From: Microtetraspora fusca
Lineage (GTDB): Bacteria > Actinomycetota > Actinomycetes > Streptosporangiales > Streptosporangiaceae
NCBI RefSeq assembly: GCF_001570365.1
Contig: NZ_BBYK01000040.1
Location: 124,001 to 188,000, forward strand
Length of the DNA: 64,000 nucleotides
Direction of reading: 5' to 3'
Shown here: positions 37,974-39,301 of the stretch, piece by piece
Numbering within the stretch: position 1 is the first letter of the stretch
How the letters are laid out: every line of letters begins with the position of its first letter
Translations under genes and position numbers: made by a program
The notes under the pieces: model-generated
What the model was told of the DNA's origin: nothing
The model's database searches: none
The model's input: only the letters and a program-made list of their open reading frames with translations

Positions 37974-38080
37974 GTCGCCATCCTGCCACCAGCCGTTCCC
38001 TTCACCGGCACCGGGACCCCGCCAGCGGCCGGAAGGCCATCCACGATCACGAACGGTCCCGCCCGCTGCCGGACATGCGC

Positions 38081-38086
38081 TATATT
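38081..38086 (+). promoter_or_regulatory. -10 box of the aromatic leader transcript
   Basis: TATATT lies 7 nt before the ATG of the leader peptide, so transcription probably begins at that ATG. No clear -35 hexamer is visible 17-18 nt upstream. Confidence 0.55.
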
Positions 38087-38093
38087 GCGTGGC

Positions 38094-38162
38094 ATGCGTA
38101 CCGCTGAGTTTTGGTATGGCGACGGACCCGCAGGGACCGCTCGCCCCTTAGCGCTGCGCTGA
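38094..38162 (+). CDS. Aromatic amino acid leader peptide (Phe-Trp-Tyr)
   Basis: 22-residue open frame with three consecutive aromatic codons, F6 (TTT), W7 (TGG), Y8 (TAT), at 38109-38117, followed by a strong terminator and then the DAHP synthase gene. This is the layout of ribosome-mediated attenuation: shortage of any charged aromatic tRNA would stall the ribosome and favour readthrough. Codons 11-12 (GGA CCC) repeat the right arm of the terminator (GGACCC) and could pair with its left arm. Found by reading the leader; not shown experimentally. Confidence 0.8.
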   Translation: MRTAEFWYGDGPAGTARPLALR

Positions 38163-38178
38163 CAGCCAAGGCGAACGA

Positions 38179-38212
38179 AAAGGCCCCGGGTCCACACGGA
38201 CCCGGGGCCTTT
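38179..38212 (+). terminator. Attenuator terminator before DAHP synthase
   Basis: Perfect 15-bp stem AAAGGCCCCGGGTCC / GGACCCGGGGCCTTT with loop ACAC, followed by CGCGTTTT. It lies 16 nt after the leader stop and 43 nt before the DAHP synthase ATG, so it would stop transcription before the gene unless disrupted. Confidence 0.88.
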
Positions 38213-38254
38213 CGCGTTTTGCGAGGAAAACGACAGCACCCACTAGGAGTGACC

Positions 38255-39301
38255 ATGGTCATCGTCATGGGATCCGAGGCGACCCCGGACGACATCGAGT
38301 CGATCGTCGGGCTCGTCGCCACGGCCGGCGGCGAGGCGTTCGTCAGCCGCGGCGTGAGCCGGACGATCATCGGGCTGGTCGGCGACGTCGAACGGTTCGC
38401 GGCGCTGAACCTGCGCGGCAAGTCCGGCGTCGCGGACGTCATGCGCGTGTCCGTGCCGTACAAGCTGGTCAGCCGGGAGAACCATCCCGAGCGGTCGACC
38501 GTCAGGGTGGGCGGGGTGCCGATCGGCCCGGACACCGTGACGCTGATCGCGGGCCCGTGCGCCGTCGAGACCCCGCGGCAGACCCTGGAGGCGGCCGAGA
38601 TGGCCAAGGCCGCGGGCGCGACCCTGCTGCGCGGCGGCGCCTTCAAGCCGCGCACCTCGCCGTACGCCTTCCAGGGGCTGGGCGAGGAGGGCCTGCGGAT
38701 CCTCGCCGACGTACGCGAGAAGACCGGCCTGCCGATCGTCACCGAGGTGGTGGACGCCCACGACGTCGAGCTGGTCGCGTCCTACGCGGACATGCTGCAG
38801 ATCGGCACCCGTAACACGCAGAACTTCGCGCTGCTCCAGGCGGTCGGCAAGGCGGGCAAGCCGGTCATGCTCAAGCGCGGCATGAGCGGCACGATCGAAG
38901 AGTGGCTGATGTCGGCCGAGTACATCGCCCAGCGCGGCAACCTCGACATCGTGCTGTGCGAGCGCGGCATCCGCACGTTCGAGACCGCCACCCGCAACAC
39001 CCTGGACGTCTCCGCGGTCCCCGTCGCGCAGCGGCTCTCCCACCTCCCTGTGATCATCGACCCGTCCCACTCGGGCGGCCGCCGCGACCTCGTCCTGCCG
39101 CTCACCCGCGCGGCCGTCGCGGTCGGCGCCGACGGCGTGATCATCGACGTCCATCCCCACCCCGAGCAGGCGCTCTGCGACGGCCCCCAGGCCCTGGTCA
39201 ACGGCGACCTGCGCGAGCTCGCGCGGGTGATGCGCCAGTTCCCCCCGCTGCTGGGCCGTACGCTCACCGACGCCACGCACGCGGTCCCGGTGCCCGCGTG
39301 A
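38255..39301 (+). CDS. aroF: 3-deoxy-7-phosphoheptulonate synthase (DAHP synthase, class I)
   Basis: First step of the shikimate pathway. About 348 aa: an N-terminal ferredoxin-like regulatory segment (residues 1-70) and a TIM barrel. Motifs: LIAGPCAVETPRQ, GGAFKPRTSPYAFQG, TEVVDAHDVE, MLKRGM and PVIIDPSHSGGRRDLV. The ATG at 38255 has GGAG 5 nt upstream. A longer frame to 38111 reads through the terminator and is rejected. Control is probably by attenuation at 38094-38212. Confidence 0.95.
   Translation: MVIVMGSEATPDDIESIVGLVATAGGEAFVSRGVSRTIIGLVGDVERFAALNLRGKSGVADVMRVSVPYKLVSRENHPERSTVRVGGVPIGPDTVTLIAGPCAVETPRQTLEAAEMAKAAGATLLRGGAFKPRTSPYAFQGLGEEGLRILADVREKTGLPIVTEVVDAHDVELVASYADMLQIGTRNTQNFALLQAVGKAGKPVMLKRGMSGTIEEWLMSAEYIAQRGNLDIVLCERGIRTFETATRNTLDVSAVPVAQRLSHLPVIIDPSHSGGRRDLVLPLTRAAVAVGADGVIIDVHPHPEQALCDGPQALVNGDLRELARVMRQFPPLLGRTLTDATHAVPVPA

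Follow-up and report, generated by a model that had tools for sequence, protein, structure and literature searches.

A putative leaderless attenuator with Phe, Trp and Tyr codons ahead of DAHP synthase in Microtetraspora fusca and other actinomycetes

The window, a stretch of 64,000 nucleotides from Microtetraspora fusca, contains a gene for a type I-beta DAHP synthase with Pfam matches to DAHP_synth_1 (E 4.1e-81) and DAHP_snth_FXD (E 1.6e-16), the protein having a ferredoxin-like N-terminal domain. The DAHP synthase of Microtetraspora sp. NBRC 16547 is 98% identical to it. Upstream of the leader locus lies an oppositely oriented gene with an oxidoreductase molybdopterin domain (Pfam). An earlier note on this DNA had described a leader ORF with the codons TTT TGG TAT, a TATATT element, a terminator and the word GGACCC ahead of the DAHP synthase gene, and its coordinates and letters were found to be correct when the sequence was re-read. 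The features of the locus are the following.

38076 to 38086, + strand: extended -10 promoter element TGCGC-TATATT, in which T, G, C, G and C are retained in 72, 65, 58, 70 and 56 of 75 distinct leaders, respectively; TATATT (38081-38086) is 7 nt ahead of the leader ATG
38094 to 38162, + strand: leader ORF MRTAEFWYGDGPAGTARPLALR, with ATG at 38094, 22 sense codons and TGA at 38160-38162; probably leaderless, starting at the RNA 5' end
38096 to 38159, + strand: P0, a possible outer stem (38096-38100 with 38155-38159) joining the leader start and stop regions in the minimum-energy fold
38109 to 38117, + strand: control codons TTT TGG TAT, inside the leader ORF
38118 to 38145, + strand: P2 hairpin (38118-38125 with 38137-38145), which sequesters segment 1
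38124 to 38130, + strand: segment 1, the antiterminator 5' strand GGACCCG, with its partner at 38187-38193
38138 to 38177, + strand: a further helix that may serve antitermination, formed by 38138-38145 and 38170-38177 and found mostly in the GGACCC clade
38179 to 38212, + strand: intrinsic terminator stem-loop, a perfect 15-bp stem (38179-38193 with 38198-38212) with the loop ACAC and an interrupted T-rich tail (38213-38222)
38245 to 38249, + strand: Shine-Dalgarno-like AGGAG of DAHP synthase, by sequence
38255 to 39301, + strand: type I-beta DAHP synthase, 348 aa

The GGACCC of the leader (38124-38129) is identical to part of the right arm of the terminator. The combination of an FWY leader with a terminator is far from chance and recurs in relatives. 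Three consecutive codons that between them encode F, W and Y, in whatever order, are expected at about 3e-5 per site given the codon usage of 29 ORFs of the window, and the fold of 38081-38260 has a z score of -4.91, with none of 200 shuffles equally stable.

Leaders were sought with a pattern of TAnnnT 6-8 nt before ATG or GTG followed by an aromatic run. Upstream regions were inspected for 56 of 111 fetched loci (L001, L003-L056 and L084), the remainder being mostly from other phyla. The pattern was present in 43 of the 56 and absent in 12 (L021, L046, L048-L056 and L084), and L025 was too short. Alignment A1 holds 40 leaders (39 distinct rows) after same-genome repeats (L032, L034 and L045) were dropped, and covariance model R1 was built from 40 relatives. 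R1 has matches at E<1e-12 in 141 of 150 genomes of the window's family, at least 27 of which supplied model sequences, and these strong matches reach most of the 68 genera sampled in the family; a tally of 149 family genomes at E<=0.01 counts terminator-only matches too. In eight of the nine family genomes that have no strong match the orthologous enzyme was not found either, some of these genomes being incomplete (completeness of G107, G117 and G159 is 67-86%). Five of them (G018, G079, G117, G159 and G163) have no DAHP synthase match at E<=1e-40, and three (G035, G062 and G107) have merely a 51-53% identical stretch within frames of 714-855 aa. G140 is the genome with the enzyme (77%) and no leader.

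In a class-wide sample of 345 genomes, strong matches precede DAHP synthase in 34 (33 of the family plus G047), and in all 34 the leader ends 9-96 nt from the gene on the same strand. A leaderless frame with an aromatic run was found in 40 of 40 regions from further genera, which were chosen from strong R1 matches. Outside the family, 11 of 20 fetched upstream regions have a leader, eight have none and one was too short; five more leaders came from model matches (L131-L135), in addition to L029. The leader is thereby known in ten families, including that of the window (f1, f4, f10, f16, f22, f26, f29, f30, f33 and f40). The best E values in Streptomyces sp. 7-21, Jiangella and Amycolatopsis are 2.8e-8, 1.1e-6 and 3.3e-6, respectively. 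Weak class-wide matches in f19 and f35 genomes (L130 and L200-L202) have no leader, nor was one seen by eye upstream of position 3001 in L211, the plasmid-borne DAHP synthase of Streptosporangium sp. NBC_01495, which is abutted by a hypothetical gene. Extra leader copies in the window's own genome were considered and rejected, as there is one strong match and the rest have E values of 6.5e-7 or weaker, among them the opposite strand of the same place and matches to the terminator part only. Three genomes of genus g28 (L137, L138 and L139) have degenerate leader copies away from DAHP synthase, and those of L137 and L138 lack a start codon where one is expected.

The earlier note proposed that the leader peptide is translated from a leaderless RNA, and the relatives are consistent with this. 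All 75 distinct leaders have TAnnnT, a motif demanded by the search itself, at a distance of 7 nt (50 leaders), 8 nt (15) or 6 nt (10) upstream of the start; 59 leaders start with ATG and 16 with GTG. The TGCGC before the -10 hexamer is strongly kept, yet no conserved -35 element was found in the 75 leaders. A consensus scan called neither a sigma-70 promoter nor a terminator on the + strand at the leader locus. From the position of the hexamer we infer that the RNA 5' end is at the leader ATG. In some lineages that lack the leader (L214, L215, L228 and L232), a TAnnnT lies about 7 nt upstream of the DAHP synthase start codon, as in a leaderless gene.

The first 17 residues include F, W and Y in 70 of the 75 distinct leaders, and F and Y in the other five; the number and order of the aromatic codons differ among leaders. 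The codons chosen are rare ones: in 29 GC3-rich ORFs of the window TTT accounts for 1 of 331 Phe codons and TAT for 28 of 239 Tyr codons, and within the first 17 residues of the 75 leaders they account for 92 of 141 and 72 of 113, respectively. Conservation of the leader, its codons and the terminator backs the proposal of an attenuator that senses the aromatic family ahead of DAHP synthase; a lack of FWY codons and terminator in relatives, which would have counted against it, was looked for, and both are conserved.

In genomes of f20/g53, full-length R1 matches of moderate strength (E 1e-7 to 1e-13) precede a small chorismate mutase, and the f20/g53 genomes listed or fetched have no DAHP synthase match at E<=1e-60. 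Genus g53 is probably Streptomyces, judging from the nearest named homologs. The chorismate mutase assignment comes from Pfam CM_2 for one representative (P0003) and from a motif in all 27 members of the set, which comprises two f39 genomes plus 25 of the 27 listed g53 genomes; the two g53 genomes left out, G337 and G385, have short matches. Within the first 17 residues, F and Y occur in all 27 of these leaders and W in 2; W occurs beyond the first 17 residues in L121 and L197. The difference from the DAHP synthase leaders (W in 70 of 75 versus 2 of 27) has a Fisher p of 1e-16, uncorrected for relatedness. Judged by sequence, the leader before chorismate mutase is homologous to that before DAHP synthase, and the codon set appears to follow the product of the enzyme, with Trp absent as the chorismate mutase branch predicts. 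A search for the Streptomyces-type chorismate mutase at E<=1e-8 matched 3 of 41 genomes and gave no match in the window's own genome, and chorismate mutases beside non-ribosomal peptide genes on two Streptomyces plasmids have no leader by eye.

The RNA structures of the leader were assessed from the A1 alignment. The terminator has 96.4% of cells paired, and in 8 of its 15 pairs both sides have changed; RNAalifold independently finds the 15 terminator pairs, and predicts the terminator only. Its U-tract is short, interrupted (CCTTT CGCG TTTT) and weak. P2 has 80.3% of cells paired and both sides changed in 5 of 8 pairs. P0 has 87.2% of cells paired and both sides changed in 1 of 5, so that covariation lends weak support to what is a possible stem. 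For the whole off structure 90.2% of cells are paired, compared with 81.9 in shuffles. The competing pairing of segment 1 with the terminator left arm (38124-38130 with 38187-38193) is intact in 93.0% of cells across the 39 distinct rows, with 3 of 7 pairs double-changed, one pair being A-U in 18, G-C in 17 and G-U in 3, and another G-C in 19, C-G in 10 and U-G in 1. The nested helix (38138-38145 with 38170-38177) is paired in just 56.5% of cells. Two of five covariation measures for the antiterminator set do not go beyond shuffles (double-change pairs, 38/500; pair types, 212/500), and on the enzyme tree the exchange between GGACCC/GGGTCC and CGGCCC/GGGCCG is mostly one split. Independent row pairs for the exchange number two on well-supported branches and three on all branches; the mean fraction of these in which the partner side b moves in the same direction is 0.8 and 0.7, and it never reaches significance. 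The second GGACC copy (38134) was rejected as a general antiterminator strand since it pairs in the GGACCC clade only, its last pair being G-G in 20 of 40 rows, though it may help on a Tyr stall.

Comparison among families extends this picture, as the duplicated word varies by lineage yet fits its own terminator (for example CCGGGGCT/AGCCCCGG in L226, CGGGGCCT/AGGCCCCG in L133 and GGAGTCCGG/CCGGGCTCC in L199). The longest perfect helix (G-U allowed) between the 24 nt past the aromatic run and the terminator left arm averages 7.09 bp in the family (n=75; shuffled 5.38 bp), 6.78 bp before chorismate mutase (n=27; shuffled 5.38 bp) and 6.56 bp in leaders of other families (n=16; shuffled 5.26 bp), for some of which (L217, L224 and L229) the script's choice of terminator is doubtful, and it is at least 6 bp in 70/75, 27/27 and 12/16, respectively. 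A test of duplex energy was weaker, with p<=0.05 in 22/75 family, 7/27 chorismate mutase and 1/5 other-family leaders. The role that the earlier note gave to GGACCC as an antiterminator strand thus gains from pairing kept across relatives and across other families with different sequences, while independent changes within the family are few. The shuffles (5.3-5.4 bp) indicate that a GC-rich leader often pairs with a GC-rich arm at random, as would be expected if the locus were a chance arrangement in GC-rich DNA, but conservation of the arrangement in 141 of 150 family genomes and its presence in other families make that explanation scarcely credible.

Alternatively, the nascent FWY peptide itself could sense a free aromatic metabolite and then arrest the ribosome. 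TnaC arrests the ribosome in this way in response to tryptophan. Conservation of the peptide does extend past the aromatic run, to GDGP or GYRP and to an LR at the C terminus, which speaks for a peptide sensor, but the GDGP/GYRP stretch is accounted for by RNA pairing, and other families have different peptides after the aromatic codons with RNA that matches their own terminator. Since the number and order of aromatic codons differ as well, and arrest leaves the loss of Trp codons before chorismate mutase unexplained, a peptide sensor is an improbable reading of the locus.

How a ribosome on the leader would influence these pairings was examined by folding the 75 leaders. The measure was how far six bases of the left arm pair, on average, with the RNA upstream of them while the right arm is still missing, with the ribosome front edge set at 12 nt past the first base of the A-site codon. 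A ribosome on the first aromatic codon gives an antiterminator pairing of 0.93, versus 0.70 in shuffled leaders, which also score high because the region is GC-rich. With the ribosome stalled at the last aromatic codon the value is 0.42 on average (>0.5 in 34 of 75), and with no ribosome it is 0.74. For a ribosome at the stop codon the value is 0.88 when pairing across it is allowed and 0.04 when such pairing is barred. In the full transcript at equilibrium the terminator reaches 0.998 in both states tested. Simple equilibrium folding was rejected as a full explanation, since by itself it fails to produce the off state: the antiterminator also forms without a ribosome, and the outcome at the stop codon depends on whether pairing across the ribosome is permitted. 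Once the transcript is complete it adopts the terminator fold in all states modelled, so the switch must be kinetic, a view also held of known attenuators.

The very stable stem and the termination of the full transcript at equilibrium would also suit a constitutive terminator behind a small leaderless gene, acting as a fixed brake or as the end of a small RNA, with aromatic codons that serve the peptide. This reading has a marginally poorer standing than the peptide sensor: the antiterminator strand stays complementary across families, the codon set tracks the pathway branch, and the 17 nt between terminator and gene in L006 are too short for another promoter.

Ribosome-mediated attenuation would proceed as follows. 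Transcription would begin at the leader ATG, with a 70S ribosome trailing the polymerase. As long as the tRNAs for Phe, Trp and Tyr are charged, this ribosome would reach the UGA (38160) and cover the region between, and the terminator would form. A ribosome waiting on TTT, TGG or TAT would mask GGCGA with its front edge and so block P2, and the freed GGACCCG (38124-38130) would capture the terminator left arm (38187-38193), allowing transcription to proceed into the DAHP synthase gene. The enzyme is thus probably made when aromatic amino acids are short. The predicted folding energy of the antiterminator is -32.3 kcal/mol for a Phe stall, -28.3 for a Trp stall and -20.9 for a Tyr stall, and a ribosome on the Tyr codon hides about four bases of GGACCCG. 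In this model the Tyr codon, which comes last, is expected to have a weaker effect than the Phe and Trp codons. The claim that shortage of any one aromatic amino acid could relieve termination is accordingly supported by folding for Phe and Trp, whose stalls give a strong predicted antiterminator, and is weakened for Tyr.

Sequence comparison establishes the leader with its aromatic codons, the terminator and the mutually competing pairings, and these are very probably best explained by ribosome-mediated attenuation of DAHP synthase transcription on a leaderless RNA. It is also rather likely, with less assurance, that a single homologous family of leaderless attenuators, present in ten or more actinomycete families, senses the tRNAs of all three aromatic amino acids at the committed step, that in Streptomyces-like genomes it sits on an unrelated chorismate mutase with Trp codons dropped to fit the branch, and that the otherwise rare TTT and TAT make it a slow, sensitive sensor. 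If this is true, a single RNA switch would govern entry into aromatic amino-acid synthesis in a large actinobacterial order rich in antibiotic producers, and the same switch on two enzymes, with sensing codons that differ as the pathway branch predicts, would be a natural experiment. The leader would be a ready target for raising the supply of aromatic precursors and could be used to test how three amino acids are weighed against one another in a single leader.

The proposed attenuator is a known kind of switch and a widespread member of it, absent from Rfam and from the literature searched. Rfam 15 has no match in the window at the gathering score, the best weak match being 20 bits against a threshold of 61, and the literature searched, which largely lacked subscription papers, describes neither a DAHP synthase leader with Phe-Trp-Tyr nor any leader for the chorismate mutase of Streptomyces. 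Among the attenuators named in one review (PMC11802643) are trpL and pheL of E. coli. The E. coli leaders read one amino acid each and start from a Shine-Dalgarno sequence, unlike the leader of the window. They are similar to the attenuator proposed here in that the position of the ribosome picks antiterminator or terminator. The available text on the Acholeplasma uORFC-13-1 motif before aroF (PMC8632094) describes a small ORF and a terminator ahead of DAHP synthase, as in the window, but with at least one Phe, a ribosome-binding site and a different phylum. The accessible portion of a Streptomyces lividans study calls seven of eight leader peptides leaderless (PMC8079986), which runs counter to the earlier view that a leaderless start is unusual for an attenuator. 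The trp, leu and ilv leaders of Streptomyces (PMC8079986; trp attenuators, PMC1262725) share with the leader of the window a terminator, an actinobacterial host and, probably, a leaderless start of the peptide, and differ in their amino acids and genes; the portions available include no Phe/Tyr leader among the Streptomyces leaders (PMC8079986) and report no conserved structures for other amino-acid pathways (PMC1262725). Corynebacterium glutamicum has an aroF attenuator with an aroR leader that, per the accessible text of a review, answers to Phe and not to Tyr (PMC11802643, PMC4046766). As far as those sources describe it, aroR/aroF resembles the putative attenuator of the window in belonging to an actinobacterium and in placing a leader peptide with aromatic residues in front of DAHP synthase, here at the head of an operon, and the two differ, in a comparison by description only, in that the control run is Phe-Tyr-Phe without Trp in aroR and Phe-Trp-Tyr in the window.
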